DNA of 39,579 nucleotides from positions 1-39,579 of IMG/VR virus record IMGVR_UViG_3300030060_001896; one strand, 5' to 3'. Below, piece by piece: positions 381-16,046 of the stretch. The notes beneath the pieces were generated by a model. It ran no database searches and was not told the origin of the DNA. It saw only the letters and a program-made list of their open reading frames with translations. Numbering within the stretch: position 1 is the first letter of the stretch; each line of letters opens with the position of its first letter. The DNA comes from a virus. The translations under genes were made by a program, and so were the position numbers.

Positions 381-1084
381 TACTTCACTCCTCTGAATCT
401 AGTGCCACGCAAAGCAGCACCACCGCCACGACAAACATTAGAGGCAGCACCACCACGCTTAAAACCAGGAACACCTCTGCCACGCAATATATCCTTCTTT
501 GTTACCTTGCCATCACCTGTTAAATCTGGGAAAGCAGCTCCGCCTTTTTTCATTGGTTTTGGTCTGTTTGTAACGCCACCTTTATTGGTGTTAGTTAATG
601 CTTTTTTTATAAGATCTATGTCTGCATTAGAAATAGTACGGCCAGTTTTATCTAATGTTCCCAACGCTTTTTGCAAACGAGCTTTATCTGCATTAGATAT
701 ACCAAAGCCAGTTTCTTTTTTCAGGTCTAATGATTTTTGCATTGTACCAACTTTACCACCTTTCTGTTTGAATACGATGCCCTTTTCTTTTAACAACCGT
801 CTAATTTTAGCGGGACTCATTCCTCCTGTGTCAATGCCCAAAATCTCATCAACGCCTCGTTTCTCGCCAGACTTCAAAAGATCATCCGCTAACTTATCCA
901 TCAAGCCTGGGCTACCGCCTTTTTCCATTTTTTTAGGAAACATACCCAGACCATTAAATTGATGAATGCTATCAGCCAAAACCTCTTTACTCATTCCACG
1001 GGTATTAAAACCTACAATTTTAGCTAATTTTCTTAATTCTTTCATTGACATTTTGTCAAATTTTGTAAGTCCATCGTTAGCCAT
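380..1084 (-). CDS. hypothetical protein with SAP-like N-terminus and EF-hand-like loop
   Basis: A 234-residue protein downstream of the terminase; its ATG overlaps the TerL stop (TGATG). Residues about 13-45 (MKELRKLAKIVGF...MSKEVLADSIHQF) resemble a SAP/HeH helix-extension-helix, a small nucleic-acid-binding fold. A second similar helical stretch follows (MSPAKIRRLLKEKGI). Near the C-terminus, DLTGDGKVTKKDIL looks like a calcium-binding EF-hand or dockerin loop, followed by a Gly/Arg-rich tail. I recall this combination from marine phage proteins of unknown role. DNA binding is inferred from the SAP-like segment only. Confidence 0.85.
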   Translation of the reverse strand: MANDGLTKFDKMSMKELRKLAKIVGFNTRGMSKEVLADSIHQFNGLGMFPKKMEKGGSPGLMDKLADDLLKSGEKRGVDEILGIDTGGMSPAKIRRLLKEKGIVFKQKGGKVGTMQKSLDLKKETGFGISNADKARLQKALGTLDKTGRTISNADIDLIKKALTNTNKGGVTNRPKPMKKGGAAFPDLTGDGKVTKKDILRGRGVPGFKRGGAASNVCRGGGAALRGTRFRGVK

Positions 1085-2574
1085 CAGTAATACTCCTTTT
1101 TGCGCCTGTAACTACTAAACTCATCATCCTCATAATCTGAACGAGTGCGTATAAATCCACCTTGTCTAAAACGTAGTATAGCCTGAGTCATGCTATCCGC
1201 CAAGTCATCATGCTCTCCATTAGGAAAACTAGCGCATTCCTCTACAACTTCCTCCGCCCACCTAGTATCTGGTGTCCATACCATGCCACTTTCAAATACA
1301 GGCGCACACGCATTCATACGAGAAAACTTATCAGAACCACGACCAGGTGTAAATGTACTCACAGGTATGCCCATCTGACGCAGCTCATGTGTTAATGGCG
1401 TACCACTCGACTTCTGCTCTATTAATACCATGTCAGGATCAAAATCATTGTATAACCGCAACGCATTATCCTTTAACTCTGGAAACTCCCAACGACCCTT
1501 CTCAGCATCTAATAATATAATCGCTGGCTCATCTCCCTCATCTGGATAAAATATACCCCATGTGGTTATCGCACTATAGTCAGCACGGTCTGATTTTGTA
1601 AAAGCAGTGTCATAACTTTGTATTATATAATCACATGGAGGTGGAGCGTCCTTCTCCCAGATGTTCCACCACTCCCTTTTTACTATCGCACCCTCTTCGG
1701 CTGTCGGGTTCTGCAAATACTGTGCGTTCCATTTCGACACAGGTATCGAAGCCTTCACACCTTCTAACTCTTCCCTGCTCCAAAATTCGGGCCACAACAC
1801 GTTGTCTGTGTCTGGAAATATGGCTGGAAACTCTACTACTTCCCATTGATCAGCACCCCCCTCTGCCTGTTTGTTCAATACTTTCGCTGTTAAATCACGA
1901 ATACTCCATCTCGTCATAACAATAATAATCGAACCTCCAGGCTGTAATCTCTGTCTAGGTCCAGATGTATACCACTCATAAATGTTATCTAATGCACTCG
2001 GACTTAAAGCGTCTTGTTCGGAAACAGGATCATCAATGATACAAAGGTCAGCACCACGACCAGCCAAAGCACCACCGACACCAACAGCGTAATACTCACC
2101 ACCCTTATTGGTTGACCACCTACCAGACGCTTTCGCATCTTTCGCCAATTCCATATCTGGGAAAATATCCCTGTATATCTCACTATCAAGTAAATTCTTA
2201 ACCTTTCGACCAAATCCTACAGCCAATTCAGCAGTGTGCGTTGCCTGTATAATCTTACGATTAGGTTCCTTGCCCATAATCCAAGCAGGAAATAAATAAC
2301 TCGCAAATTCGGATTTTGTATGTCTCGGTGGCATATTAACGATTAATCGCTTTAACTCGCCACTCGCTACCTTCTCTAGCTTCTTAGCAAAAATGTGATG
2401 ATGCTCGCCAGCAATAAAACTAGGCCAAACATATCTCACAAAATCTAAAAAACTTTTCTGTAACGTATCTCTTTGTTCTAACTCCTGATATCGTTTTAAA
2501 GTAGCCCCTAATTTTTCTAACTCTTCCTGAGTTAAAAAATCTACATCTATGTCAGGTATGGCAAAGTTATTCAT
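1084..2574 (-). CDS. terL: terminase large subunit (TerL)
   Basis: The packaging motor: an ATPase that drives DNA into the prohead, and a nuclease that cuts the concatemer. The 496 residues are full length for the family. Visible motifs: Walker A-like MPPRHTKS (81-88), Walker B LCIIDD (177-182), coupling motif MTRW (220-223), and an RNase H-like nuclease domain with Asp322 in QSYDTAF, Asp332 in ADYS and a C-terminal NGEHDDLADS. The gene starts 1 bp after the stop of the 528-residue gene and overlaps the next start, so it is mid-operon. TerS is not adjacent: the candidate lies about 7 kb away at 9443-9931. Confidence 0.97.
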   Translation of the reverse strand: MNNFAIPDIDVDFLTQEELEKLGATLKRYQELEQRDTLQKSFLDFVRYVWPSFIAGEHHHIFAKKLEKVASGELKRLIVNMPPRHTKSEFASYLFPAWIMGKEPNRKIIQATHTAELAVGFGRKVKNLLDSEIYRDIFPDMELAKDAKASGRWSTNKGGEYYAVGVGGALAGRGADLCIIDDPVSEQDALSPSALDNIYEWYTSGPRQRLQPGGSIIIVMTRWSIRDLTAKVLNKQAEGGADQWEVVEFPAIFPDTDNVLWPEFWSREELEGVKASIPVSKWNAQYLQNPTAEEGAIVKREWWNIWEKDAPPPCDYIIQSYDTAFTKSDRADYSAITTWGIFYPDEGDEPAIILLDAEKGRWEFPELKDNALRLYNDFDPDMVLIEQKSSGTPLTHELRQMGIPVSTFTPGRGSDKFSRMNACAPVFESGMVWTPDTRWAEEVVEECASFPNGEHDDLADSMTQAILRFRQGGFIRTRSDYEDDEFSSYRRKKEYY

Positions 2575-4975: not shown

Positions 4976-6178
4976 TTATCTGCCTAGGTCTATTCTTCTC
5001 TGGTGGAAGTATTCAAAGCATTCATCTGACATTGATCCCCATATTGAATCAGATCCAATATGATTCAGATTATGTAATGACAAGCTACCAATCAATTCTA
5101 ATGATCTTAAAACCTCATACCCATTTTGATCATAACGCCCACTTGATGATCCGTAACGATGCCCATTGGTTTGTTGATCATGTTGAACGACTAACCTAGA
5201 ATCAATATCGGGATGATTCCTGATTTCTGAAAATCTAGCTCTGATCGTTGGCGCATCCCAACCTGTACTATTCATTAAGCTTTGTGTACTAGCACCACCC
5301 TCAACTCTTGCGAGTGAATACAAAGTGTGAACTCTTGATCCGTATCTATATAAAGAAGTTGGGCTAGTAAGATTAGTATTATTAACAGAGTCATAATTGA
5401 TTCTGGTCTTATCAGAGTGCTGGAATAGATTGTCTATAAACTCATAATAACGAAAGAGCTTTTCAGTATTGAGAGTCGCTTGGGGTTGCCTAAATTCCAA
5501 TCTACCCTCATTATATTTGTTAAAATTAATATAGTGAAATTTACCACCTATAATATCGTCACATTCTCTAACATTAGATTCCATGAATTGATTATAATCT
5601 CTACCATTAATTTTAATGTTATCAATATCTTTAACATATCTGTGACTCCAACGTGATCGTGGAAAAAATGCGTTAATCTGATCTTTATGTGTTGCGTATC
5701 TTGTGGCAACGTCTTTTGCTAATAACAAAGGCATTTCATTTGCATTGTTAAAAGTGTCCACAACACTAGATCTTATTCTCTCTTCTAAATGTCTATTTTC
5801 TGGCTTGAGCATTTCAGTTGCGTGAGCCTTTGAAGCTTGCCAATGTTGATGAGGAGTCGCATTAACAACAGATTTTAAACCTACATTAATATGACCACCA
5901 TTATCAACTTCACCCACTTTAAAACGCTTATCTGTTAACCATGTGAACAGATCTGCTATATCAGATCTAGCTTGTAGTGAATGATAGCTAAAAGGCGGAA
6001 TGATTAACTCTGTTTTAACATTGTGTTCATGCGTGGCATTTACCCATGTAAATCCATCATTATGTAGATCTCTATGAACATCACGGAAAGATCTATGATG
6101 ATAAGGCGAATCGGAATGAGTAGAGACCTCTTGTTCAGTACCCATTACTAAAAAATCATTTTCTTTGATATAAGTCAT
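4976..6178 (-). CDS. amidoligase-family protein (glutamine synthetase-like carboxylate-amine ligase fold)
   Basis: A 400-residue enzyme predicted to form amide bonds with ATP. The family pattern is visible in order: metal-binding GTEQE (13-17), KTELIIPPF (55-63), GGHINVG (94-100, equivalent to the GxHVHV motif), KFHYINF (213-219) and RLEFRQPQATLN (226-237, equivalent to the family's EFR...GTL). The start at 6178 is preferred over an ATG at 6265: GGAG lies 9 nt upstream of it, and the earlier ATG falls inside the operator. It is a single-gene unit with its own promoter and terminator. Family knowledge: phage amidoligases are predicted to work with gamma-glutamylcyclotransferases or amidotransferases on peptides or proteins. 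A cyclotransferase-like gene is at 12701-13120. The substrate is unknown. Confidence 0.78.
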   Translation of the reverse strand: MTYIKENDFLVMGTEQEVSTHSDSPYHHRSFRDVHRDLHNDGFTWVNATHEHNVKTELIIPPFSYHSLQARSDIADLFTWLTDKRFKVGEVDNGGHINVGLKSVVNATPHQHWQASKAHATEMLKPENRHLEERIRSSVVDTFNNANEMPLLLAKDVATRYATHKDQINAFFPRSRWSHRYVKDIDNIKINGRDYNQFMESNVRECDDIIGGKFHYINFNKYNEGRLEFRQPQATLNTEKLFRYYEFIDNLFQHSDKTRINYDSVNNTNLTSPTSLYRYGSRVHTLYSLARVEGGASTQSLMNSTGWDAPTIRARFSEIRNHPDIDSRLVVQHDQQTNGHRYGSSSGRYDQNGYEVLRSLELIGSLSLHNLNHIGSDSIWGSMSDECFEYFHQRRIDLGR

Positions 6179-6208
6179 TGTTTTTACTCCATTTTTTCGG
6201 TTGTTGAA

Positions 6209-6232
6209 AGTGCCAAAAAATAGGTTGGCACT
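6209..6232 (-). promoter_or_regulatory. inverted repeat in the amidoligase leader
   Basis: AGTGCCA (6209-6215) and TGGCACT (6226-6232) are perfect 7-bp complements with a 10-nt loop. They lie between the promoter and the ribosome binding site, where a hairpin or a second protein-binding site could control expression. Confidence 0.5.
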
Positions 6233-6246
6233 CCTAATTTTACCAA

Positions 6247-6275
6247 ATAATGGCAACCATTGCAAATTATTTGAA
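6247..6275 (-). promoter_or_regulatory. promoter with palindromic operator, amidoligase unit (site 2)
   Basis: On the minus strand: -35-like TTCAAA (6275-6270), 17-bp spacer, -10-like CATTAT (6252-6247). The spacer contains TTGCAATGGTTGC (6265-6253) in the same register as the other sites. The -35 is weak, so it may need activation. Confidence 0.6.
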
Positions 6276-6459
6276 CAATTGATCGGGATTGAAAAATGAC
6301 GAAGGAAGAAAGGAGGGGTGATTATATGCTGAACTTCAATTTGGACAGTAGCCGAGAAGCCCGATCCCGATCCCCGATCAACATATTGTATGCTGCGCCT
6401 GGCGGGCCAGGCGTTATCCGATCAATTGTTCGGGTTTTTGCAGCCAGGTGCTGGAAGCC
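6276..6459. repeat. intergenic spacer with CGATCAATT repeats and GC-rich inverted sequences
   Basis: No gene is visible between the amidoligase promoter and the next terminator. The spacer holds the CGATCAATT 9-mer twice (6277-6285 and 6419-6427), runs of CCCGAT, and a GCCTGGCGGGCCAGGC inverted repeat around 6398-6413. It is more GC-rich than its surroundings. The plus-strand ORF at 6296-6595 is not supported. Confidence 0.6.
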
Positions 6460-6490
6460 AAAAAAAATGGGCGGTATTTCTACCGCCCAT
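6460..6490 (-). terminator. intrinsic terminator after the 128-residue gene
   Basis: A perfect 10-bp stem (6481-6490 with 6467-6476) with a GAAA tetraloop on the minus strand, followed by eight T (complement of 6460-6467). Confidence 0.93.
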
Positions 6491-6504
6491 CTTACGAGGT
6501 ATTC

Positions 6505-6891
6505 CTATTCACCGAAGAAGAACATTTGGGCAAACTCTAGAACTGTTTCGGGATCTTGTCCTGTGGTGCGAGTCCAAGGTGTCCCCCAATCTTGACCCTC
6601 TAGCGTTGCAGTTGATGGCTCTTTGTGTTGGTTTAGCTTTCCTGTGATTCTAACTGAAGGTCCACCCCAACCGAGAAGAATTTCAAATTCCTCTGCTACC
6701 ATCTCGTCACCTAATGAATGCCAACCTGAACGCACTTGAATGCTCAATGGCATTTCGTGGCAACGCTCTACGATTTTTTCTGCCAAAGCGTCTTTGTTCA
6801 AGTGGTTGGCTTTTGCCAAAATTCTCATTAAGCGGTCAATTTCAAAAAATGTTCCCTCGCCTATGTTCTCAATTTTTTTAATATCGTTCAT
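6505..6891 (-). CDS. hypothetical phage protein
   Basis: A 128-residue protein, second gene of the unit that starts at promoter 7056-7084. The N-terminal half is helical and charged (IDRLMRILAKANHLNKDALAEKIVERC), the C-terminal half aromatic and Gly-rich (LLGWGGPSVRITG, TPWTRTTGQDPETVLEFAQMF). I vaguely recall similar uncharacterised phage proteins but cannot name a family. Its ATG lies one base after the stop of the 42-residue gene, and a strong terminator follows. Confidence 0.85.
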   Translation of the reverse strand: MNDIKKIENIGEGTFFEIDRLMRILAKANHLNKDALAEKIVERCHEMPLSIQVRSGWHSLGDEMVAEEFEILLGWGGPSVRITGKLNQHKEPSTATLEGQDWGTPWTRTTGQDPETVLEFAQMFFFGE

Positions 6892-6892
6892 T

Positions 6893-7021
6893 TTATTGAT
6901 CCTCGTTGTAATATTTAATTATTGCTTTTAATGTGTTGATAGCATCTTCATCATCTATCTTTCCCATCTGTAGTTGACCCACTAAGTCCTCTAGGTCTTC
7001 GAGTAGTGTTGTATCTTCCAT
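6893..7021 (-). CDS. 42-residue acidic peptide
   Basis: The ATG at 7021 has a GAGGT ribosome binding site 7 nt upstream and the frame closes with TAA at 6893, one base before the next gene's ATG. The peptide (MEDTTLLEDLEDLVGQLQMG...) is strongly acidic and should be helical. It is the first cistron behind an operator-bearing promoter. It is too short for a confident family match; promoter, ribosome binding site and spacing make it likely real. Confidence 0.7.
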   Translation of the reverse strand: MEDTTLLEDLEDLVGQLQMGKIDDEDAINTLKAIIKYYNEDQ

Positions 7022-7055
7022 AATTTTACCTCGTTTGTTTTGTTGATACCTTTAT

Positions 7056-7084
7056 ATAATAGCAACTATTGCAATAGATGCAAG
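7056..7084 (-). promoter_or_regulatory. promoter with palindromic operator (site 3)
   Basis: On the minus strand: -10 TATTAT (7061-7056) and the palindrome TTGCAATAGTTGC (7074-7062) directly upstream of it. The -35 is weak (CTTGCA with 17 bp, or TTGCAT with 16 bp). The leader carries GTATCAACAA. Confidence 0.65.
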
Positions 7085-7234
7085 TTTTTTTTACTTTTTT
7101 TGTATTTTTTTTTACGAAAGGACGGAGGCTGTCGCTGCTGTGCCTGCACTAAAATTGATCGTGTTTTAGCCAGGAGCTGCGCTGCGTGTTGACGTACAAT
7201 TGATCGGGTTTACTCAAGCAGCGAGTTACTGGGT

Positions 7235-7260
7235 AAAAAAAAGCAGGGTTAATACCCTGC
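7235..7260 (-). terminator. intrinsic terminator after the 65-residue gene
   Basis: GCAGGGT (minus strand 7260-7254 pairing with 7249-7243) with a 4-nt loop, followed by eight T (complement of 7235-7242). Between it and site 3 lie two more CGATCAATT copies (at 7153 and 7198). Confidence 0.92.
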
Positions 7261-7282
7261 CTTTTCTCTGATTAAGTCTAAA

Positions 7283-7480
7283 TTAATTGTCTAATATCTC
7301 TTGAATTACACCGCCTACAACATCTCCATCATTGTCTAGCATTTTTGTTTCACCCGTCTGCAAAACCTCATCTGCATCAAAGTCAAAACGCTTTGCAAGT
7401 TTACGCAATTCTCTTCTGCCCCAGATGGCGGTTCTGCCTTGACCATCTTGAAACCACATAGTAAATTCTTCTTTTGCCAT
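7283..7480 (-). CDS. small hypothetical protein
   Basis: A 65-residue protein (MAKEEFTMWFQDGQGRTAIW...). The start at 7480 has CAGGAG 7 nt upstream. An in-frame ATG at 7528 is rejected because it lies inside the operator and promoter. Residues about 20-40 (RRELRKLAKRFDFDADEVLQ) look like a helix-turn-helix-like helical pair but are too short to classify. It forms a single-gene unit with its own promoter and terminator. Confidence 0.8.
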   Translation of the reverse strand: MAKEEFTMWFQDGQGRTAIWGRRELRKLAKRFDFDADEVLQTGETKMLDNDGDVVGGVIQEILDN

Positions 7481-7509
7481 CGTATTACTCCTGTTGTTGA
7501 TACATATAT

Positions 7510-7538
7510 ATAATAGCAACTGTTGCAATAATAGTCAA
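7510..7538 (-). promoter_or_regulatory. promoter with palindromic operator (site 4), the clearest copy
   Basis: On the minus strand: -35 TTGACT (7538-7533), exactly 17 bp, -10 TATTAT (7515-7510). The spacer contains TTGCAACAGTTGC (7528-7516) abutting the -10. The leader holds GTATCAACAAC immediately before CAGGAG. Binding at this site would block RNA polymerase. Confidence 0.8.
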
Positions 7539-7549
7539 AAACTTTTTTA

Positions 7550-8085
7550 GAGGCTTTTCCCAACGATGCTGCTGTGCCTGGCTGCAACTGATCAATTGAT
7601 CGTGTTCCGAAGTCCCAGGCAGCGAAGTGGGACCGGCTGTTAAAAACTGCTGCCTGGTAAAACTTATACGCTGCTTGTCTTTATCCCGATCAATTGATCG
7701 TGTTCAGGTGCCTGGCAGCAACTAATTCCTGGCTGTGTCCCGATCAATTGATCTTGTTTTGTTGACCCAAGCTGCGCTGTCGCTGTAGCAAACCCGATCA
7801 ATTTCATGCAGCGCTGCTGCTAAGCAGCCGTGCAAAGCAGCCGAGCTTCGATATTTCCCGATCAATTATACGGGTTTGAGCAGGTCGAAGCGAACCCGAT
7901 CCCGATCAATTTATGAAAAACGCCTGGGAAAAAGCTGCGGTAGTCCCGATTATTCCGATGATAATTTCGATCAATTCCCGATCATGCCTCGATCTTCAGC
8001 CCGATCACTAGGAAAAAGTCTCTCCGACCTCACTAGGTTTATGGGTGATAATGGGATATATTGGCTATCTTGTACTATTTCACCC
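7550..8085. repeat. gene-free region packed with CGATCAATT / GATCAATTGATC repeats
   Basis: About 540 bp with no supportable gene. GATCAATTGATC occurs at 7590-7601, 7688-7699 and 7742-7753, and single GATCAATT copies begin at 7796, 7860, 7904 and 7969, mostly preceded by CC and with GTGTT or GGGTT nearby. Between them lie GC-rich words able to pair (CCAGGCAGC and GCTGCCTGG at 7615-7665; GCAGCGCTGCTGC at about 7810). Candidate roles are a replication origin, a centromere-like or protein-binding array, or a repeat of host origin. Confidence 0.75.
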
Positions 8086-8111
8086 AAAAAAAAAGAGGGC
8101 ATAAGCCCTCT
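8086..8111 (-). terminator. intrinsic terminator after the 52-residue gene
   Basis: AGAGGGC/GCCCTCT 7-bp stem (8111-8105 with 8100-8094), loop of 4 nt, then nine T on the minus strand (complement of 8086-8094). The stem touches the TAA of the 52-residue gene. Confidence 0.92.
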
Positions 8112-8269
8112 TAATTTATTTTTTTGCCAATCATTGTTGATTTACCTGATAAATAAATTTGATATTTACCTTTATGTTTTCTTGAAAAAGCTCTCATATC
8201 TCTTGCAGAACCCTCTCTCTCACAAATTCTTGTCTCTACATTAACAAGCTTATAAGATGTACACTTCAT
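8111..8269 (-). CDS. 52-residue basic protein
   Basis: The ATG at 8269 overlaps the previous stop (TAATG) and the frame ends with TAA at 8111-8113, next to the terminator. The protein is strongly basic (MKCTSYKLVNVETRICERE...AFSRKHKGKYQIYLSGKS is its character; two Cys, many Lys/Arg). No family is recognised. Third cistron of the unit from promoter 8693-8721. Confidence 0.7.
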   Translation of the reverse strand: MKCTSYKLVNVETRICEREGSARDMRAFSRKHKGKYQIYLSGKSTMIGKKIN

Positions 8270-8508
8270 TACTTTACACCTCCAATAAATAAAAAACCGC
8301 CACCATTACCTTCTGGATCACGAGATACTTCTATTTTTAATGTCTCATATCCTGATTTTTCTAAAATGAAAGTAGCAAATCCATCATATTTAAAAACTTG
8401 ATCATCAGCCATACCTTCAAATTTTTTAATGGTATAACCTTCTAATTGACCATAATAATTTTGGTAATATTCATCACGTTGCTTTTTAATTGATGTTAAA
8501 TCAGTCAT
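8269..8508 (-). CDS. small hypothetical protein
   Basis: A 79-residue protein with a charged helical N-terminus (SIKKQRDEYYQNYYGQLEGY) and a beta-rich C-terminus (FATFILEKSGYETLKIEVSR). No family is recognised. It lies 2 bp after the stop of the 48-residue gene and overlaps the next start, in the middle of a three-gene unit. Confidence 0.78.
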   Translation of the reverse strand: MTDLTSIKKQRDEYYQNYYGQLEGYTIKKFEGMADDQVFKYDGFATFILEKSGYETLKIEVSRDPEGNGGGFLFIGGVK

Positions 8509-8510
8509 TT

Positions 8511-8657
8511 TTAATCATCCTTTTCTTGTTGTTGATTCCATAAAGTTAAACCAAAATCATATCCTATTTTGTAGAAGTGACTGTTTTTATTTTCATCTAT
8601 TACACCCACTAACAAGCCATCAGATACACCATCTTTAAAATCTTGTATATTTTCCAT
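8511..8657 (-). CDS. 48-residue hypothetical protein
   Basis: The start at 8657 (MENIQDFKDGVSDG...) has GGAG 9 nt upstream. The in-frame ATG at 8702 lies in the operator and is rejected. The pattern FKDGVSDGLLVGV...YKIGYDFGLTLW resembles short phage proteins made of a repeated 'Y/F-x-x-G-x-x-x-G' helix. First gene of its unit. Function unknown. Confidence 0.72.
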   Translation of the reverse strand: MENIQDFKDGVSDGLLVGVIDENKNSHFYKIGYDFGLTLWNQQQEKDD

Positions 8658-8692
8658 TTTAAATACTCCGTATTTTAATTGTTGATAGAGTA

Positions 8693-8721
8693 TCAATAGC
8701 AATCATTGCAATTTATGTCAA
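8693..8721 (-). promoter_or_regulatory. promoter with palindromic operator (site 5)
   Basis: On the minus strand: -35 TTGACA (8721-8716), exactly 17 bp, -10 TATTGA (8698-8693). Operator TTGCAATGATTGC (8711-8699). The leader has CTATCAACAA. The terminator of the next unit ends 2 bp from the -35. Confidence 0.78.
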
Positions 8722-8722
8722 T

Positions 8723-8745
8723 AAAAAAGAGGGGTTGCCCCCTCT
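8723..8745 (-). terminator. intrinsic terminator after the paralogue pair
   Basis: AGAGGGG/CCCCTCT 7-bp stem (8745-8739 with 8734-8728), 4-nt loop, then six T on the minus strand (complement of 8723-8728). Confidence 0.9.
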
Positions 8746-8778
8746 TTAATTAATTTACGATCTTTAATTAATTTACGA
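8743..8778. repeat. perfect tandem duplication of 18 bp
   Basis: TCTTTAATTAATTTACGA occurs twice in direct succession (8743-8760 and 8761-8778). One copy covers the end and stop codon of the 102-residue gene, the other continues into the terminator stem. Confidence 0.9.
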
Positions 8779-9076
8779 TTGATTTTGCAAGCTCTACTGC
8801 TTTTTGAATTGCCTCTTGGCGATTATTACCATGCCACTTAGAATACATTAAATCTCCATTTTTAGTAAAATCAATTCCGTAAATATCTAATTGTTCTGAT
8901 TCTGCTTGTTCTTTTGTTTCAAAAGCAAACAGTTGAACTAAATTATATCCATCTTCTGTTTCTTTCGCTTGAAAAGTAACAGAAGAGGTAAGATCATGTT
9001 TATCTGATGAGTTATACCATAAAATATTTTCATCGTATGCATTTAAGTCTTTAACAAGCTTATCTATGTAATTCAT
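8768..9076 (-). CDS. hypothetical protein, paralogue of the 100-residue neighbour
   Basis: A 102-residue protein. It shares with the next gene upstream the pattern MN-I-K---DL, then Q-FAFETKE-AE-E and a C-terminal W-GNNR--AI-KAVE-A, so the two arose by tandem duplication. No named family is recognised; the fold looks like alternating strands with a final helix. Its ATG overlaps the stop of the upstream copy by 4 bp. A terminator follows. Confidence 0.82.
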   Translation of the reverse strand: MNYIDKLVKDLNAYDENILWYNSSDKHDLTSSVTFQAKETEDGYNLVQLFAFETKEQAESEQLDIYGIDFTKNGDLMYSKWHGNNRQEAIQKAVELAKSIVN

Positions 9077-9375
9077 TTTGTTACCTCATTTTCTGCAAAT
9101 TCTACTGCTTTTTCAATAGCATTGTCACGATTGTTTCCTGACCATTGGTTTAGAAGTTTTCCATCATCATTAACAGACATAACTCCGTAAACACTTGCAC
9201 CTTCTTCTTCTGCTAATTCTTTTGTCTCAAAAGCAAAAAATTGTACTTCTACATCTTTAACATTAGTAATAACTGAAGTTGGGCATACATTAGAATCATC
9301 CGAAAAATCTTTCCAAACAATGTCGCTGCCTGATACTTTGCCTAAATCTGCAATAATTTTTTCTATATGGTTCAT
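9073..9375 (-). CDS. hypothetical protein, first copy of a tandem paralogue pair
   Basis: A 100-residue acidic protein and the first gene behind promoter 9411-9439, with a GAGG ribosome binding site. Shared blocks with the downstream copy are QFFAFETKELAEEE and QWSGNNRDNAIEKAVEFAE. Keeping two diverged copies in one unit suggests either a heteromer or two variants against different targets; this is inference. Confidence 0.82.
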   Translation of the reverse strand: MNHIEKIIADLGKVSGSDIVWKDFSDDSNVCPTSVITNVKDVEVQFFAFETKELAEEEGASVYGVMSVNDDGKLLNQWSGNNRDNAIEKAVEFAENEVTK

Positions 9376-9410
9376 TTTTTTTTCCTCATTTTAAAGTTGT
9401 TGATGTGTAT

Positions 9411-9439
9411 CAAATAGCAACAGTTGCAAATTATGTCAA
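9411..9439 (-). promoter_or_regulatory. promoter with palindromic operator (site 6)
   Basis: On the minus strand: -35 TTGACA (9439-9434), exactly 17 bp, -10-like TATTTG (9416-9411). Operator TTGCAACTGTTGC (9429-9417). The leader has CATCAACAAC. Confidence 0.75.
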
Positions 9440-9442
9440 ACA

Positions 9443-9931
9443 TTATTTTTGTTCATGTTCAATTACATTATTCATTCTATTTTCAGCCAGGCGTTTAAAT
9501 TCGTCTAACTTCTTTAATATTTGTTCTTTTGTCTCTAGGCTTACTTCTTCCTTAATTATGTGTTGCTTGTTTATTAATAACCCCGATGCCTTTAATCGAA
9601 GTTCTTCTGCTCTCAACGCTTCATTATATTTACCTTCTTGCCACGCCTCATCTCTAATCTTTTTTAAATCCCGAATAGATTTATCTATAGACACTCCATA
9701 TCTGGCTTGTGCCTCTAATCTCATCTCTCCTAGACGTTCTTGGACAATTGGATTACGAAGTAGCCTAACTGCAGCTACAGTTTCGTTTTTATATCCAGCC
9801 TCTCTTGCCGCTTGAGTTTGTGTCATATCCCGATGCAGATAGTTATTCAGAAAATCTTGTTGTTGTGGGCTAAGTCTTTTTAGTCCAGCGATTGAATCTT
9901 CTTTACTTAAATTTTCTCCGACTTTTGGCAT
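9443..9931 (-). CDS. terS: terminase small subunit (TerS), Terminase_2-like
   Basis: A 162-residue protein. Residues about 19-70 (LSPQQQDFLNNYLHRDMTQT followed by QAAREAGYKNETVAAVRLLRN) match the N-terminal helix-turn-helix of Terminase_2 small subunits, which recognise the packaging site and load TerL. The C-terminal half is helical and charged, as expected for oligomerisation. GGAG precedes the ATG by 8 nt. It is unusual that TerS lies about 7 kb from TerL with the accessory region between. A cluster of GGTAAGT words directly upstream (9999-10173) is a possible recognition site. Confidence 0.85.
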   Translation of the reverse strand: MPKVGENLSKEDSIAGLKRLSPQQQDFLNNYLHRDMTQTQAAREAGYKNETVAAVRLLRNPIVQERLGEMRLEAQARYGVSIDKSIRDLKKIRDEAWQEGKYNEALRAEELRLKASGLLINKQHIIKEEVSLETKEQILKKLDEFKRLAENRMNNVIEHEQK

Positions 9932-9960
9932 TTATTTTGCTCCGATTAATATTGCGTTAT

Positions 9961-9989
9961 GGGGTATAGGTTATCAGTACCTATACCCC
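9961..9989. repeat. 10-bp inverted repeat upstream of TerS
   Basis: GGGGTATAGG (9961-9970) and CCTATACCCC (9980-9989) are perfect complements with a 9-nt loop; a further CCCC-TATAA-GGGG palindrome overlaps on the right. There is no T-run on either side, so it is more likely a protein-binding site or RNA structure than a terminator. Confidence 0.7.
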
Positions 9990-9998
9990 CCTATAAGG

Positions 9999-10173
9999 GG
10001 TAAGTGGTGGTAAGTTGGTAAGTACGAACAATTTCAATAACTTAATGTCGGTTGCTTCATATTTTACATTAAATTGAAGCAACTGGTAAGTAAGTTTGTA
10101 AACCATTGTTTTAATTACCATTTTTACTTACCAACAGTTTTACTTACCAATGATAAGTTGATAAGTGGTAAGT
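9999..10173. repeat. cluster of seven GGTAAGT/ACTTACC words (candidate packaging site or origin)
   Basis: GGTAAGT at 9999, 10009, 10017, 10085 and 10167, and its complement ACTTACC at 10126 and 10142. Degenerate ATAAGT copies occur at 10153 and 10161. The spacer contains no gene. Repeats of this size upstream of terS fit a TerS-binding (pac or cos) site; iterons of a replication origin are the alternative. Confidence 0.7.
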
Positions 10174-10178
10174 GAATT

Positions 10179-10733
10179 TTATATCCAAGATAGATTTGTA
10201 CGATCAATTTTATCCCTCCTCCATATCATCCAGCAGAACGCAATTTTACCTGACCCGTACCACGCTTCTTCATGATCACCCCGTATCATAGTCAGCCGTT
10301 CCGAGAAAACCAGAACCTCCGCTGGGGCGTGTACATCATAAATTGATCGCCTTCTGGTTTGTCCCTCCAGGTAAGCTAAACGCAAAAGCATAGCAAAGCC
10401 GATCAATTCTTCGTGATAGTGCAGCAAGTCGAGGCACTTTAGTACAAATTCATTAGCCAGTTTATACGGAGGATTAGTTACTATCCATTTGCAATTAGCC
10501 TTAGTTTCCATCAGAAAATCAATACCATGTTTCCCATAACCCCGATCAATTAAGTCCGTGCTGCGTACATTTAGTCCATTTTCCTCCAGCACTTTGGATA
10601 TTGCCCCGTCACCACAAGCACATTCCCAGACATCATACTGGGTATTCCCGATCAATTCTAAGTGCGGTAGCAGCGGCAACACCGCTTGCGGTGGAGTTGG
10701 ATAAAAATCATCTTTTTCCCGATTGTCGTTCAT
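10179..10733 (-). CDS. DNA N6-adenine methyltransferase-like protein
   Basis: A 184-residue SAM-dependent methyltransferase of the type found without a restriction partner in phages. Visible: DFYPTPP (9-15), motif I WECACGDG (36-43) for SAM, an acidic STDLID after strand 2 (58-63), and catalytic motif IV NPPY (87-90). The protein is short and has no separate target-recognition domain, so its sequence specificity cannot be read. It overlaps the 59-residue gene upstream (ATGA). Its coding sequence contains five copies of the GATCAATT word, starting near 10202, 10341, 10401, 10544 and 10650. Confidence 0.85.
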   Translation of the reverse strand: MNDNREKDDFYPTPPQAVLPLLPHLELIGNTQYDVWECACGDGAISKVLEENGLNVRSTDLIDRGYGKHGIDFLMETKANCKWIVTNPPYKLANEFVLKCLDLLHYHEELIGFAMLLRLAYLEGQTRRRSIYDVHAPAEVLVFSERLTMIRGDHEEAWYGSGKIAFCWMIWRRDKIDRTNLSWI

Positions 10734-10909
10734 TTTGATTTACCCCGATAAGAAGCGCATCTTTTCTTATAATTGCTTTTAATCTCTGCAATATCAGAAA
10801 AGAAGTCCCCGATCACTTCATCGCCTGTTTTCCAATACAAGTCTTCGATACAACGCTCTGCGGTTGTTATAATTTGATATACTTGTTTTTGTTCATCACT
10901 CATTTTCAT
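10730..10909 (-). CDS. 59-residue hypothetical protein
   Basis: The ATG at 10909 overlaps the previous stop (ATGA), and its TGA overlaps the start of the adenine methyltransferase. A second in-frame ATG (10903) would give 57 residues. Sequence MKMSDEQKQVYQIITTAERC... is helical with two Cys and a basic end (NYKKRCASYRGKSK). No family is recognised. Coupling on both sides supports a real gene. Confidence 0.72.
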   Translation of the reverse strand: MKMSDEQKQVYQIITTAERCIEDLYWKTGDEVIGDFFSDIAEIKSNYKKRCASYRGKSK

Positions 10910-11097
10910 TGTTTTAAATTTATTCTATCTGCAATCCTATAACTTTCAGATCTTTTCCAACCGCTCATATCTCTAGCTTTTTTGGAGTGTGTTTTGGCTC
11001 TTGTTTGCCTAGTTGGTTTTGGCGGTTGAAAGTTAATTAAATTATCTATAGATCTTTGTAACTTTTGCCTAAACTCTTCGACTGTTTCATTTTCCAT
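10906..11097 (-). CDS. small basic hypothetical protein
   Basis: A 63-residue protein from the ATG at 11097 (MENETVEEFRQKL...), preferred over the ATG at 11118 because GGTGGA lies just before it. It has a helical acidic N-terminus and a very basic C-terminal half (KPTRQTRAKTHSKKARDMSG), suggesting nucleic-acid contact. It overlaps the SleB-like gene by 11 bp. Confidence 0.7.
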   Translation of the reverse strand: MENETVEEFRQKLQRSIDNLINFQPPKPTRQTRAKTHSKKARDMSGWKRSESYRIADRINLKQ

Positions 11098-11512
11098 AAT
11101 TCCACCTATAAAATACATGGTTGTTTATTTGAACTGTTTTTTGTTTTGACTCAGCCCAATCTGGGTACACATAAGTAGCGTGGTAATGAGTTGCACCTTC
11201 TGTAACGTCATATGTTCTCATAGACATAACTCCATACGCTACCATGACAGATGTATCCCATGCGTTACCTTTAGGCGCATAGTCACTCTTACCATCGCAA
11301 AAAAAGCTAAATTGGCATTTGTCCCGAACTGGATAATCTGGCTTCCATGTATATGTTGGACCTTGTTTAACAACGCTACACACATCATCAGGATATCGCT
11401 CATCATATACACGATTAATGATAACATTAGCTACCGCTATTTGCCCGATAATAGGCTCACCTCTGGCTTCAAAGTAAATAGCAGTAGCCAAACATACCAA
11501 CGGATCAATCAT
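11087..11512 (-). CDS. SleB/CwlJ-type cell-wall hydrolase
   Basis: A 141-residue protein matching Hydrolase_2: the active-site segment is AIYFEARGEP (11-20) with Glu15 as presumed catalytic acid, followed by VANVIINRV. It should cleave peptidoglycan glycan strands. There is no signal peptide or membrane segment, so it would need a holin or act in another way. It sits in a non-structural operon, away from the GH108 endolysin in the virion operon. Four residues of coding sequence overlap with the genes on either side. Confidence 0.87.
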   Translation of the reverse strand: MIDPLVCLATAIYFEARGEPIIGQIAVANVIINRVYDERYPDDVCSVVKQGPTYTWKPDYPVRDKCQFSFFCDGKSDYAPKGNAWDTSVMVAYGVMSMRTYDVTEGATHYHATYVYPDWAESKQKTVQINNHVFYRWNYGK

Positions 11513-12696
11513 GACTTAGCCCTCAGATTGTAGTCTTTAATAATAATACCTAATTCAGGATTACCTACAACCTGTTCTTCTATCCACTTCTCTCTTATGA
11601 TACCATCAATCCCTTTATTGCGTCTAAAATGCCCTCTACGAGTATGCTGACGCTTTGGAGTGCCATGCCCTGTAAACATCTGATTATATATCTTTACACC
11701 ACGAGGCTTTGGCAAATTAATGTCAATGAGCTTATACTCATTCTTTGGCATCTTGCGACCCCAACGAACAGAATCTATTTGTTGTGGTGATTGCACGACC
11801 TCTGTGGTGATAAGTGGATAGTTAAGAATTGCAAGAAGGGATATTAGAAAACGCATATCTCCTGCAATCTGCAATAACATTGCATCTGTCATAGATTTTA
11901 ATTTGTGACCGCCATTAGTATTCCAAAAGTTTGCTATTTCATCTCTATCAAACTGCATAGTTGATGCACTAGAAAGACCGATAACACTTCTATTGAGAAG
12001 AAAATTTACATCTTCTTCTCTGTCTCTTTGGAAATAATTTATATATGGTAGTCCAATTAACTTTTTATTAGCATCAATTAAATCATTACGATCTTCTTTT
12101 CTACGCAGATTAATGATATTAATAGGATCAGGAAACAACACAAAATCAGTCATTAAAGGAACAATTTTTTGTGTATCTTTGTCCTTTGTGTATCCTTGGA
12201 AGATAAAACGATCAAAGCTATTCATACCTTTAGTGACATCTAGATTAGGATTGTCAGAGAGTTTTTGAATGTGATACCCAACAAGTGGAGTAAGATCGTC
12301 TAATTGCTCAGTTGCAGTTGACGGCATTAGCTTATCCTGTATCTTTTTTAGATAATTTTTGCGGACATTTTCATCCCATTCCACCCACATATTATTTGAC
12401 GGTGGAATAGCCATCTGCATTGCCTGAAAAAGCTTCTTTGGTTTTACCCAAGACGCACTTGTGGCATGAGCTAACAGGTTATCACTAACAAAAAACTTCG
12501 TGCTTTGCATTAACTCACGAACTGTTTTTCTTTCTATAAACTTACCTTCTTTAGAAGATCTGTATTTTAGTATGCCTCGCTTTGGTTGAGCAAATGCAGC
12601 CATAACTTCATTTATAAAAGCAGTTTGTGGAGTTAAGGCTTTTTTCAAAGCCTCCACTCCATTGTTGATACGCTTATCATAATCAATCATTGCCAT
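11509..12696 (-). CDS. conserved phage hypothetical protein
   Basis: A 395-residue soluble protein, AGGA ribosome binding site 8 nt before the ATG. The C-terminal part (RWGRKMPKNEYKLIDINLP, then RGHFRR and VGNPELGIIIKDYNL) is a pattern I recall from uncharacterised phage proteins. The RRGHFRR segment is basic, and no enzymatic motif is evident. It lies between the cyclotransferase-like gene and the SleB-like gene and overlaps the latter by 4 bp. Confidence 0.82.
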   Translation of the reverse strand: MAMIDYDKRINNGVEALKKALTPQTAFINEVMAAFAQPKRGILKYRSSKEGKFIERKTVRELMQSTKFFVSDNLLAHATSASWVKPKKLFQAMQMAIPPSNNMWVEWDENVRKNYLKKIQDKLMPSTATEQLDDLTPLVGYHIQKLSDNPNLDVTKGMNSFDRFIFQGYTKDKDTQKIVPLMTDFVLFPDPINIINLRRKEDRNDLIDANKKLIGLPYINYFQRDREEDVNFLLNRSVIGLSSASTMQFDRDEIANFWNTNGGHKLKSMTDAMLLQIAGDMRFLISLLAILNYPLITTEVVQSPQQIDSVRWGRKMPKNEYKLIDINLPKPRGVKIYNQMFTGHGTPKRQHTRRGHFRRNKGIDGIIREKWIEEQVVGNPELGIIIKDYNLRAKS

Positions 12697-12700
12697 GTTA

Positions 12701-13120
12701 TTATCCTTTCATCCATTGCAATGCTCTTTTGACATCAGTTGATTCCTCTCTTGCTTTTTCTAACAGAGAAACATCAAGACCAAAATCAAGATATCCTTCT
12801 TTAATGATGTCATAGTAATGATCACTAGGCTCTGATCTTCCATATCTATTCATTTGATATGTCATAAAGCCAAAGACATCTATTCTTCGATAAAGATTAG
12901 GATAGCCCTCATATATATCTAAGCTATACTGATCTCTTTCAGATATATCCCAAAGACCAACGGCTAACTTACTGCCTTTGAATGGAACAATATCTGCGAC
13001 CCCTCGGAAAACTAATTTCCAACCAGGTATATATGCGTTGCCCAATGGCTTTGCATCTGGACAACGATATGCCATCTGATCCATATTTAAGTTTGAACCA
13101 TAGGCTAGGTACTTAATCAT
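12701..13120 (-). CDS. gamma-glutamylcyclotransferase-like protein (GGCT/AIG2 fold)
   Basis: A 139-residue protein with the signature YGSNLN (7-12) that binds the glutamyl group and Glu71 in YEGYPNLYRR as the presumed catalytic residue. Family members release 5-oxoproline from gamma-glutamyl amines or peptides. First gene of its unit, with AGGAGG before the ATG and the shared operator upstream. The phage also has an amidoligase-like ligase (4976-6178), and amidoligases and GGCT proteins have been linked by genome context before, so the two may make and remove gamma-glutamyl amides. That link is inference. Confidence 0.87.
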   Translation of the reverse strand: MIKYLAYGSNLNMDQMAYRCPDAKPLGNAYIPGWKLVFRGVADIVPFKGSKLAVGLWDISERDQYSLDIYEGYPNLYRRIDVFGFMTYQMNRYGRSEPSDHYYDIIKEGYLDFGLDVSLLEKAREESTDVKRALQWMKG

Positions 13121-13159
13121 AGGTAATACACCTCCTATATGATAGTTGTTGATAGTTTA

Positions 13160-13188
13160 TATATAGTATAATCTTGCAAAGATTGCAA
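13160..13188 (-). promoter_or_regulatory. divergent promoter region with shared palindromic operator (site 7)
   Basis: TTGCAATCTTTGCAA on the minus strand (13188-13174) is the most symmetrical copy. For the minus strand, TTGCAA (13188-13183), 17 bp, TATATA (13165-13160) can serve as promoter of the cyclotransferase-like unit. For the plus strand, TATAAT (13167-13172) with a weak -35 TTGTTG (13146-13151, 15 bp) would start near 13180, inside the operator. One bound repressor could control both directions. Confidence 0.65.
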
Positions 13189-13189
13189 T

Positions 13190-13345
13190 ATGGTAAATGA
13201 AAATAATAAAAAAGAATACATTTACAAGTTTGTCCCCCATCAAAAAGTAAAAGAATATAAACGGATGGGATGGGTTGTTGTGTCTACATTTAATAACTCT
13301 CCACAACACGCTAAATATGCAGTAATTATGGAAAAGTTGAAATAG
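13190..13345 (+). CDS. 51-residue protein, one of three plus-strand genes
   Basis: The ATG at 13190 opens a frame of 51 codons ending in TAG at 13343. The core YIYKFVPHQKVKEYKRMGW, followed by VVVSTF, resembles a short protein family I recall from alphaproteobacteria and their phages ('YxFVPHxxVxxYxxxGW'), function unknown. There is no clear ribosome binding site and the predicted leader is only about 10 nt. It starts 2 bp from the operator of site 7. The minus-strand ORF across this region (13157-13381) is its shadow. Confidence 0.68.
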   Translation: MVNENNKKEYIYKFVPHQKVKEYKRMGWVVVSTFNNSPQHAKYAVIMEKLK

Positions 13346-13395
13346 TTGCATTTTTTTGTTGACTATGAATATGCGAATCACTTATGTTCAAAATA

Positions 13396-13554
13396 GGAAA
13401 TAGTGCGAGACCTATCACATTTTAGAGACAAACTATTTCCAAGCGGTTTATTGGTGAGTGACCTCTGACCCTGAACAAGGGTACGTTATTCACATACAAT
13501 ATAGAAGTAAGCTTGAACTCTGATGATTGAGAAACAACCTTACTTCAGCCGCTT
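13396..13554 (+). ncRNA. candidate structured RNA with a three-way junction
   Basis: No ORF fills 13346-13625, but the plus strand folds on paper. Helix A: GGAAATAGT/ACTATTTCC (13396-13404 with 13432-13440). P1: AAGCGG/CCGCTT (13441-13446 with 13549-13554). Inside P1 are P2, GTGAGTGA/TTATTCAC (13454-13461 with 13486-13493), capped by ACCCT-GAACA-AGGGT, and P3, GAAGTAAG/CTTACTTC (13504-13511 with 13539-13546), extended by UUG/CAA and CUC/GAG. P2 contains two G-U pairs that would be A-C mismatches on the other strand, which favours the plus strand. It may be co-transcribed with the 51-residue gene. Confidence 0.5.
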
Positions 13555-13584
13555 ACTCCTAATTTTGGTTAATGTGTTAAAAGG

Positions 13585-13632
13585 GGGGGTAGCTTTTTTC
13601 AAGGCGTTTAAAGTTACCCCTTCTTTTATTTT
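13585..13632 (+). terminator. candidate terminator of the plus-strand unit
   Basis: GGGGTAGC (13586-13593) pairs with GTTACCCC (13613-13620), eight pairs including one G-U that works only in plus-strand RNA, followed by TTCTTTTATTTTTT. The loop is about 19 nt, so the hairpin is less compact than the others. It may also stop minus-strand transcription after 13626. Confidence 0.5.
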
Positions 13633-13718
13633 TTACTACTTACACCTGATACTGTAGCTTTAGCATCTTTTCTATTAGGGTTAAAAAAAGACATAATTTT
13701 CTTTAAAAATTTAATCAT
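13626..13718 (-). CDS. 30-residue basic amphipathic peptide
   Basis: The ATG at 13718 has AAGGAG at ideal spacing, and the frame ends with TAA at 13626. The sequence MIKFLKKIMSFFNPNRKDAK... starts with a short amphipathic, Phe- and Lys-rich helix that could touch a membrane. No family is known. The strong ribosome binding site and its position 10 bp after the preceding stop support translation. Confidence 0.6.
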   Translation of the reverse strand: MIKFLKKIMSFFNPNRKDAKATVSGVSSKK

Positions 13719-13728
13719 AGCTATCTCC

Positions 13729-13893
13729 TTAATCTTTTTTATGATTAAAACATTGCCAGGTTCTTCCATAATCAGAGCTATACCACGCTTGTTTACTATC
13801 ACAATGCGAACAAATTTTTTCTTTAATTACGGGTTTTTCCTGCGCTGCTGGCTGCTTCTTAAATTGATCGGGTTTTAAAAAACGTAAACTCAT
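13729..13893 (-). CDS. 54-residue zinc-finger-like protein
   Basis: The ATG at 13893 overlaps the stop of the primase-helicase (ATGA). Cys28-x2-Cys31 (CSHC) and Cys48-x2-His51 (CFNH) could bind one zinc ion in a ribbon. The N-terminal KPDQFKK is encoded by a CCCGATCAATTT copy of the genome-wide repeat. It may bind nucleic acid or assist the primase; this is inferred from the Cys/His pattern and position. Confidence 0.68.
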   Translation of the reverse strand: MSLRFLKPDQFKKQPAAQEKPVIKEKICSHCDSKQAWYSSDYGRTWQCFNHKKD

Positions 13894-16046
13894 ACATTAT
13901 CTCTTCCAGTTGTAGCCTCGTAAATACCACGAGACATATCTCCGTTTATAGAGCCTAACCATATTTTACCGCCAGTTGGTGTTAACTGGTATTTGTCAAT
14001 CTTGTTTCTTGACTGTAAATCACGCACATAACGCTCTATTGTGCTTTTTCCTATGCCTTGTAGTATTTCAGGGCAATCAGCGTCCTCAGTACGCTTAAAA
14101 ACAGCATTATTGCCTGTCATATGCGTAAGAGCTATTCCATCTCTTTCACATTGAATAATCCAAGCTTCTAATGCGTCTAATTTTGTTTCTCGCATTGTAC
14201 CACGCTCATTGCTTAAAATACGCTCAGTCATATCCACAAGAAGTCCTGTCATCGAGTCTCGTATGAAATGCCTGACATTACGCATTGCTGGTCCGTTAGA
14301 CTTAACAACCGCACCATCAAAACAAGTATTTCTTTGGTACGGAACACCAATAGTATCACATATCTTCTGACCTCTTTGTGTATCGACTTGCCACAACGCA
14401 AATGCAGAACGAACACCATCCACTAATGCTGACGTTCCTCTGATAAACTGTCGAGCTTGCTCTGGTGTTTTAATGACCGCATCATCTTTAATCTTAGTCA
14501 TGTGGTGACACATAAGAACAGATGCTCCTGTTTCTGTAGCCATCTTAGACAATAAACCAGTAAGAGCAGCTCCTGCCGCTGGATCGGCATTTACATCTGC
14601 GTGAACAAAAGATGCCAGCGGATCAAACACGATCAATTTAAGATTAGGAACCTGGAGTATTTGTTCGTATATCTTTTCAAACTCAGCAGTAGCACCAAAT
14701 TCTCCACCCTGCTCAGACATGATCGGGAAAACGCCTCCTACATTCGGTAACGGAACAATTCTAATCTCATGTGGGTATTTAAATCTTTCTCCCGATGGAT
14801 CAAGGCGATCAATTCTACGGTGCATTTCAGCTTCGTCATCTTCTGCTGTAAATATAATTACGTTTCCATAAGTAGCCACAACACCGCCAAAACTATTAAT
14901 CATTGGTCTTCCCGATGCCACCTTCATACCTAAGTCTAACGTCATCATACCCTTACCGCTATCACCAGCAGCACAAAACATAATTGGCACTCCTAGTGGA
15001 AACGTATCTGATATTAAGAACTTTTGAACAGGAGCTTCCCCCGAAAAGCGATCAATTAAAAGGCTATCGTCCAGCAGATTTATATTTCTTTTTGTAAGCT
15101 TAGACTTTGTATGCAAGAACTCTTCTATGTCGAAACCTTCTTGTATAGCATCAAACGCATCCCATTTTTCGGGTTTACCTCTTGGAGGCGTAAGCATAGT
15201 AACCGATCTTGCATTTGCGCTTAGAGCTAAGTCCTGAATTAAATCCGCCAGTTTCTTGCCTGAAGCATCATTATCAGGCCATACGATCAATTCTTTTCCC
15301 TGCAATGGAGAGAAATCGTACTGGCTGGCTGTTTTCTTTGTTAAAGAACCAGCCCCACCTAACGTACAAGTTGCTGTGTAACCGATAGAATTAAGTGCAT
15401 CTGCACACTTTTCGCCCTCTACCCAAATAACACGCTCCGATGCCAATATGTTAGGTATGTTGTATAACGGCCTAATGTCAGGAAACTTTGAGTAAGGAGC
15501 ATTAGGAATAAATGGTCTAAACTCTTTTTTTGGTTTGCCCGATGTATCTAATACAGGGCTGCCATCTGGATTCTTTACATTATACCTACGAACCGAAACG
15601 ATTACTTCGCCATCTCCATTTGCATATACATACTCAGAATCATATGGGCTATTAATGTTATATTGTTGCTTGGTTGGTTTATTATCCCGAACAATTTGTG
15701 GTGTTTGCTGGTCAAGATAGTCAGAAAACATCTCTTTTATTTCAGGAAGACGCATATTTTTAGCTTCCATAAGTATTTTAACAATACCCCCGATGCCCAC
15801 ATTGCCGTTGAAGTCTTGACCTTTCATAAAATTTTTGGACAATGGATCTATATTTATCTTCATAGAACTTCCTTGTTCACCGAAAATTGATCCTATATAG
15901 AAAGTATTGTGTGCGATTCGCCCAGACGGAAAGATATCTTGAAGTATGCGAATTTGTTCGTGTTTAGGAACACGATCAGATATCGTTTTTACTAGGTCAT
16001 GTGCTGACATACTATATTTAGTGTTGTCAAAATTAATTACAGACAT
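13890..16046 (-). CDS. primase-helicase (TOPRIM plus RepA-like AAA_25 ATPase)
   Basis: A 718-residue replication protein. Residues about 205-280 form a TOPRIM domain (VEGEKCAD 209-216 with the conserved Glu; DNDASG 258-263). Residues about 345-560 form a RecA-like hexameric helicase of RepA type: Walker A AAGDSGKG (359-366), Walker B LIVFDP (471-476) and CHHMTK after it. A C-terminal region about 610-700 looks like a winged helix (IGKSTIERYVRDLQ). It probably primes and unwinds at the phage fork. The coding sequence contains four CGATCAATT copies (near 14631, 14807, 15050 and 15285). The leader has TATCAAC twice and a GAGGT ribosome binding site. Confidence 0.9.
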   Translation of the reverse strand: MSVINFDNTKYSMSAHDLVKTISDRVPKHEQIRILQDIFPSGRIAHNTFYIGSIFGEQGSSMKINIDPLSKNFMKGQDFNGNVGIGGIVKILMEAKNMRLPEIKEMFSDYLDQQTPQIVRDNKPTKQQYNINSPYDSEYVYANGDGEVIVSVRRYNVKNPDGSPVLDTSGKPKKEFRPFIPNAPYSKFPDIRPLYNIPNILASERVIWVEGEKCADALNSIGYTATCTLGGAGSLTKKTASQYDFSPLQGKELIVWPDNDASGKKLADLIQDLALSANARSVTMLTPPRGKPEKWDAFDAIQEGFDIEEFLHTKSKLTKRNINLLDDSLLIDRFSGEAPVQKFLISDTFPLGVPIMFCAAGDSGKGMMTLDLGMKVASGRPMINSFGGVVATYGNVIIFTAEDDEAEMHRRIDRLDPSGERFKYPHEIRIVPLPNVGGVFPIMSEQGGEFGATAEFEKIYEQILQVPNLKLIVFDPLASFVHADVNADPAAGAALTGLLSKMATETGASVLMCHHMTKIKDDAVIKTPEQARQFIRGTSALVDGVRSAFALWQVDTQRGQKICDTIGVPYQRNTCFDGAVVKSNGPAMRNVRHFIRDSMTGLLVDMTERILSNERGTMRETKLDALEAWIIQCERDGIALTHMTGNNAVFKRTEDADCPEILQGIGKSTIERYVRDLQSRNKIDKYQLTPTGGKIWLGSINGDMSRGIYEATTGRDNV

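Follow-up and report, generated by a model that had tools for sequence, protein, structure and literature searches.

A repeat-built island 3' of TerS

Short spurious ORFs aside, every gene in the window, the whole 39,579-nt stretch of viral DNA analysed here, lies on its minus strand (Table 1). Because this strand encodes the terminase small subunit (TerS), we refer to it as the top strand. The main gene-free block has a GC content of 0.485, compared with 0.381 for the whole window, and the two smaller spacers have 0.505 and 0.471, in line with an earlier note that described a composition unlike that of the neighbouring DNA. The 9-mer GATCAATT occurs seven times in the block, at 7590, 7688, 7742, 7796, 7860, 7904 and 7969, and its first three copies are full GATCAATTGATC palindromes, as had been counted before. 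With up to 2 mismatches allowed, there are 14 matches in the window versus 2.56 expected, a number reached in 0 of 100 shuffles. The GC-rich pairing words reported between the repeats are present as well, CAGGCAGC (7616) and GCTGCCTG (7649) once each and AGCAGCCG twice (7823 and 7836). CCCGA, which is dense in the block on the window plus strand, corresponds to TCGGG on the minus strand.

Table 1. Features of the window discussed in the text (strand as in the window;., none assigned).
Feature	Position	Strand	Remarks
Terminase large subunit (TerL)	1084..2574	-	Late region; coding strand avoids TCGGG
Amidoligase-like gene	4976..6265	-	Downstream zone edge
Small spacer 1	6276..6459	.	Sites 6273-6284 and 6420-6431, plus CCCGATCCCGATCCCCGATC run
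Strand-polar zone	6300..16046	-	28/30 of the window's minus-strand TCGGG
Intrinsic terminator	6464..6493	-	Bounds first spacer
Promoter-side element	7040..7076	-	At second spacer; 92% identical to 7494-7530
Small spacer 2	7100..7235	.	Sites at 7153 and 7194
Terminator-like hairpin	7243..7260	+	Bounds second spacer; A- and T-runs on either side
Promoter-like element	7494..7540	-	Of gene 7283-7528
Main gene-free island	7550..8085	.	3 full palindromes and 4 further GATCAATT half-type sites; dense CCCGA
Palindrome GATCAATTGATC	7590..7601	.	Extended half (..CGTGTT) towards higher coordinates
Palindrome CCCGATCAATTGATCGTG	7685..7702	.	Both halves; left end of 54-bp deletion in relative L009
Palindrome CCCGATCAATTGATCTTG	7739..7756	.	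Site polarity switches about here
Four sites (7793, 7857, 7901, 7966)	7793..7980	-	Conserved half CCCGATCAATT or CGATCAATT, towards lower coordinates
Terminator	8093..8112	-	Bounds main block; scored on both strands
TerS (Terminase_2)	9443..9931	-
DNA primase/helicase gene	13890..16046	-	Upstream zone edge in window and relatives

No credible gene was found in the block: overlapping ORFs have TTG starts, and the alignment with relative L009 is broken by scattered indels, including the 54-bp deletion, which joins the palindromes at 7685 and 7739; the block is therefore non-coding, as previously proposed. An Rfam search of the block returned no match at the gathering score, and no related DNA turned up when the region was compared by blastn with phage records. 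The main block and both small spacers are each flanked by a terminator and by the promoter-like element of the next gene. When the three spacers were compared, no full-length alignment was obtained; they have exact motif copies of 12-14 bp in common, and spacers 2 and 3 also share a 37-bp promoter-side element (92% identity). The earlier suggestion of one element that spread between transcription units thus stands as regards the recurrence between units, but the small spacers are not fragments of one block.

The earlier note had proposed an origin or a protein-assembly site. Cumulative GC skew is monotonic through the block with no switch, which speaks against the origin, in a test in which coding-strand bias dominates the skew. 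What does find support is a special, selected, repeat-built non-coding element that fits recognition at the level of the DNA. That note did not foresee the placement of each block between terminator and promoter, the TerS-side position, the strand polarity, the pentamer or its avoidance in late genes. Nowhere is the strand-polar TCGGG zone, which covers roughly 10 kb of a marine phage genome, denser than in the block, and it is TCGGG/CCCGA, not GATC, that forms the key word.

Related islands and the polarity of their sites

The blocks recur in contigs 3300044232_003001 and 3300044238_001470, with an identity of roughly 78-89%, while several of the intervening genes differ, indicating that islands are retained as cassettes are exchanged. 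GC-rich gene-free islands occupy the same position in TerL relatives. A scan with ACAATTGTTCGGGTT gave at least 120 stretches. The family consensus, drawn from 425 instances, is TAACCCGAACAATTGTTCGGGTTA, whose left half is degenerate; it describes the motif across more than 100 related marine phage contigs. The window carries a GATC variant of this motif where relatives have GTTC, and the exact window palindrome clusters only within the window's own species. Among 109 loci with at least 2 sites, TerS is present in 95, the amidoligase in 86 and gamma-glutamyl cyclotransferase (gGCT) in 75. Judged by this gene content, the loci with the family motif belong to a single phage lineage, in which the island directly follows the 3' end of TerS. 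The amidoligase-like gene and gGCT (12701-13120 in the window) are kept in most relatives, and the side and orientation of gGCT around TerS vary among them. Scanning bacterial genomes for the motif gave scattered single matches with no TerS, TerL or amidoligase nearby, which looked like chance.

Two other accounts of the motif were rejected. GATC/Dam methylation is not its point, since relatives have GTTC. A terminator hairpin is incompatible with the degenerate left half and with a site orientation that is independent of the genes. As for fixed genome ends at the polarity switch, no clustering of contig ends was seen at the island, in loci that were chosen to span it and with assembly able to bridge ends, so that no fixed packaging end is visible.

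The sites are oriented. In the window, five sites point up (6277, 6424, 7153, 7198 and 7594) and four point down (7793, 7857, 7901 and 7966), with both halves present at 7688 and 7742, so that polarity switches inside the block although gene direction is unchanged. We scored the orientation of the first versus the last site in 72 non-redundant loci with at least 3 sites. The polarity of exact sites far from the island was left out of consideration, as some may be shared by descent. The outer sites are convergent in 51 loci, divergent in 3 and equal in 18 (binomial 3e-12), and neighbouring sites less than 150 bp apart are convergent in 47 cases and divergent in 5 (binomial 1e-9). Between two convergent sites, the L175 and L195 islands contain non-coding repeats that resemble decayed tail-fibre-type coding sequence (GGTTACGCTGCCGGG...).

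One-strand distribution of TCGGG and a second word

Within the window, 28 of the 30 top-strand TCGGG copies lie between 6300 and 16046 (binomial 2e-15), compared with 6 of 15 on the bottom strand. With the motif masked, the strand bias of the word is strong around TerS and reversed in late genes. In homology-confirmed genes, top versus bottom counts are 202 versus 74 for zone genes on the TerS strand (plus), 123 versus 15 for zone genes on the opposite strand (minus), and 0 versus 84 for late genes. A codon shuffle that kept amino acids and codon usage predicted 73 top-strand words for the first group (z 17), 61 for the second (z 13) and 65 for late genes (z -10, with the opposite strand neutral), and for TerS 54 against the 220 observed (z 28); at 50% identity nearly all of these loci fall into one TerS cluster, so that the z values overstate independence. 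Codon usage as the cause of the pattern was rejected on the basis of these shuffles. TCGGG ranks first among 1,024 pentamers, its avoidance in late genes holds regardless of the flanking base, and the change of 6.60 observed compares with no more than 1.71 in gene-label permutations.

Around the TerS stop, the word is enriched 2-4x from -9 to +2.75 kb, is neutral far upstream, and is at 0 in all bins from +3.5 to +20 kb. The zone edges are sharp and fall at the primase start and the amidoligase start; at the latter, a density of 10-19 per kb gives way to 0.0 per kb inside the gene, and in the stretch past the amidoligase the word is present again. Part of the loci were found via the motif itself; loci selected by TerL only agree, with the same layout and at most 1 late top-strand word per locus.

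The gGCT gene separates strand from gene direction. Where it lies upstream of TerS and reversed, the word is antisense to it (47 observed versus 19.8 expected), and where it lies downstream and forward, the word is in sense (138 versus 42). Late minus-strand ORFs are still low in the top-strand word (2 versus 7.9). An explanation at the level of the mRNA of each gene was rejected in view of the minus-strand genes and gGCT. The sequence statistics show that the word tracks the DNA strand and not gene direction, with selection favouring it in the zone and disfavouring it in late genes. They likewise show the putative signal unit to be TCGGG on the TerS-coding strand, either alone, in tandem arrays with a spacing of mostly 6-9 bp, or within the palindrome AACCCGAACAATTGTTCGGGTT.

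Since the TCGGG loci are close to one TerS cluster, the real independent replicate is essentially a second clade that has a different word. Here, in the isolate HTVC027P, whose host is Pelagibacter HTCC1062, and in about 40 relatives, GCTTG changes more strongly than any other pentamer, with 531 top and 204 bottom copies in the zone and 89 top and 717 bottom copies in late genes. Codon shuffles gave 164 observed versus 79 expected in zone plus genes, 49 versus 25.5 in zone minus genes, and 42 versus 82 in late genes. The HTVC027P islands contain GCTTGNN runs in 7-bp phase, and such arrays occupy one strand of the TerS-side spacers at 16506-16630 and 17396-17440 (L390). The same pentamer comparison gave no clear equivalent word in HTVC023P relatives and no equally clear one in DSL-LC04 relatives. 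DSL-LC04 does have a 700-bp GC-rich gene-free island ahead of TerL (L369:11209-11911), and DSL-like relatives have tandem CCTGG/CCGTG words on one strand upstream of TerL; this is perhaps a third version of the TCGGG/GCTTG layout.

Possible readings of the strand-polar word

The one-strand pile-up and the avoidance in virion genes suggest that something reads phage DNA in one direction. The explanation we favour, credible though somewhat short of probable, is a polar DNA signal zone that would extend around TerS from the primase to just before the amidoligase and be read by a one-direction machine. This reading draws on the codon shuffles, the position profile, the pentamer rank, the gene-label permutations and the gGCT switch, together with the 51 versus 3 convergent sites, the TerS-side islands, the TerL-selected loci and the GCTTG pelagiphages. 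It also draws on the Chi interval of lambdoid phages, where Chi is crowded between replication genes and terminase (PMC3784561), and on the presence in the window phage of genes for a Sak4-like annealing protein, a Cas4-type exonuclease and a helicase. The machine may track along the DNA one way, from the late genes towards TerS; its path through the late genes would have to be free of the word, encounters would be expected in the zone, and farther on the word would no longer matter. On meeting the word the reader might change its action, by a terminase cut or packaging stop, or by a Chi-like attenuation of degradation and start of recombination, an event that would be wanted between replication and packaging genes and harmful inside virion genes. 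Because the word differs between phage lineages, the reader is probably phage-encoded, and candidates are the terminase or the set of phage helicase, Cas4-type nuclease and Sak4.

Several observations count against this. The edges coincide with gene starts, and the word returns past the amidoligase, which pure tracking does not predict. Contig ends are unclustered, the loci amount to about one TerS cluster, and HTVC023P-like phages lack a clear word.

In its fuller form, to which we commit still more tentatively, the proposal is of phage-encoded directional DNA reading with lineage-specific pentamers: a Chi- or KOPS-like signal would be placed on a single strand between the replication genes and the terminase and erased from virion genes, and could steer packaging, end-processing or recombination by strand and place. 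A five-letter rule on one strand, enriched in one half of the genome and near-absent from the other, is a strong footprint of some unseen machine that acts on the DNA of the phage, in abundant marine phages and, with a second word, in pelagiphages of cultured SAR11. The question of DNA processing, recombination or packaging is directly testable in culture with HTVC027P on HTCC1062. As with pac or cos sites, the islands are adjacent to TerS, here directly 3' of it. The pac sites of P22, P1 and SPP1 are recognition arrays at or inside the TerS gene, with TGATCA/G words in P1. The present zone differs in covering about 10-12 kb, and in having GATC only in the window's species; no cut end was seen in the loci, which were chosen to span the island.

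The main rival, rather unlikely in our view yet deserving real weight, places the signal in RNA. The word in rightward (TerS-strand) transcripts would be a termination, roadblock or cleavage signal, similar to stoperators or to targets of RegB or mRNA interferases; cassettes would be insulated and middle genes shut off, and late messages would be immune because they lack the word. The strict avoidance in rightward late genes, the zone edges at gene starts and the islands between terminators and promoters all fit, and stoperators provide a precedent for oriented asymmetric sites that block elongation (PMC6550527). However, in zone genes on the opposite strand the word is antisense and the message itself is neutral, its strand in gGCT homologues changes with their orientation, late minus-strand ORFs are depleted in the top-strand word, and site orientation flips within an island of constant gene direction. 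An RNA signal thus does better than a DNA-reading machine on the sharp gene edges and worse on the minus-strand genes. The stoperators of Cluster A mycobacteriophages are similarly numerous, oriented, asymmetric and dispersed, with a sequence that varies by lineage (PMC6550527, PMC9283540), but they are 13-14 bp long and oriented with transcription, whereas the present word keeps to the DNA strand whichever way the genes run and is found inside genes hundreds of times across relatives.

A replication feature, either a Ter-like polar fork barrier or an origin region in which late-side forks would be arrested, seems improbable. The two convergent groups of sites do resemble a fork trap and the zone begins at the primase gene, but the block shows no skew switch, the pentamer is selected on one strand only, and no Tus-like protein was identified.

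The word could instead literally be the Chi of a host AddAB or RecBCD that protects or recombines phage ends, which we judge highly unlikely. It is G-rich, pentamer-sized and variable between phage lineages, its interval matches the Chi zone of lambdoid phages (PMC3784561), and orientation-specific reading is known from AddAB, which in Caulobacter reads chi directionally (PMC5443536). As for a Chi, one strand appears, from selection, to be the functional one and the opposite is neutral. In a complete 1.21-Mb, 29.7% GC genome of a rhodopsin-bearing, SAR11-like alphaproteobacterium, GCTTG is neither over-represented (rank 728 of 1,024) nor biased towards the leading strand (732 leading versus 855 lagging). 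Six small rhodopsin-bearing alphaproteobacterial genomes contain no full AddA, no AddB and no RecC, and AddA and AddB are present in three alphaproteobacterial controls. A literal host Chi is therefore not supported in SAR11, and it would by itself leave the absolute late-gene avoidance unaccounted for; a reader brought by the phage is preferred. Lambdoid Chi crowding is a close likeness, a short one-orientation word in the same genome interval (PMC3784561), but here the pentamer is lineage-specific (TCGGG or GCTTG), one strand is enriched while late genes are empty on that same strand, and the word is built into non-coding arrays of 0.2-0.7 kb with a palindrome.

We give very little credence to passive repeats, that is, a platform for homologous recombination and cassette shuffling without a polar reader. 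The L009 spacers are conserved while the genes between them differ, and a deletion there joins two palindromes, but the codon-controlled enrichment inside genes, the strand specificity and the late-gene avoidance are left unexplained, and the codon shuffles and gGCT pattern are hard to reconcile with it. The PeSL mobile regulatory cassettes of T4-type phages are spacers, made of a promoter and a stem-loop, on either side of gene cassettes that are swapped; the present islands are longer, have polar arrays and lie beside TerS.

Least probable of all are palindromic repressor operators of the SPBRE or LexA cheo-box-like type. The family consensus does have the CGAAC-N4-GTTCG form, but the window variant has GATC in place of GTTC, the sites have no link to promoters, and neither polarity nor the bare pentamer in genes is accounted for. 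SPBRE sites of the Bacillus prophage SPbeta are reportedly dispersed intergenic palindromes bound by MrpR, and we know of no polarity or pentamer domain in them.

AT-rich gaps, several of them just upstream of TerS (L037:1708-1964, L036:2279-2536, L075:2941-3177, L078:356-593 and L057:1444-1935), contain lineage-specific repeated 9-mers (TGGTTACAT, GGTTAGCAA, TACTTACCT) that look iteron- or operator-like. A DNA methyltransferase ORF of 524 aa (17253-18827 in the window) is covered by its family profile over about 266 positions; the extra segment of about 250 aa has an unusual composition (GC 0.46-0.49 and AT skew of about -0.4 at 17501-18500) and is perhaps an insertion.
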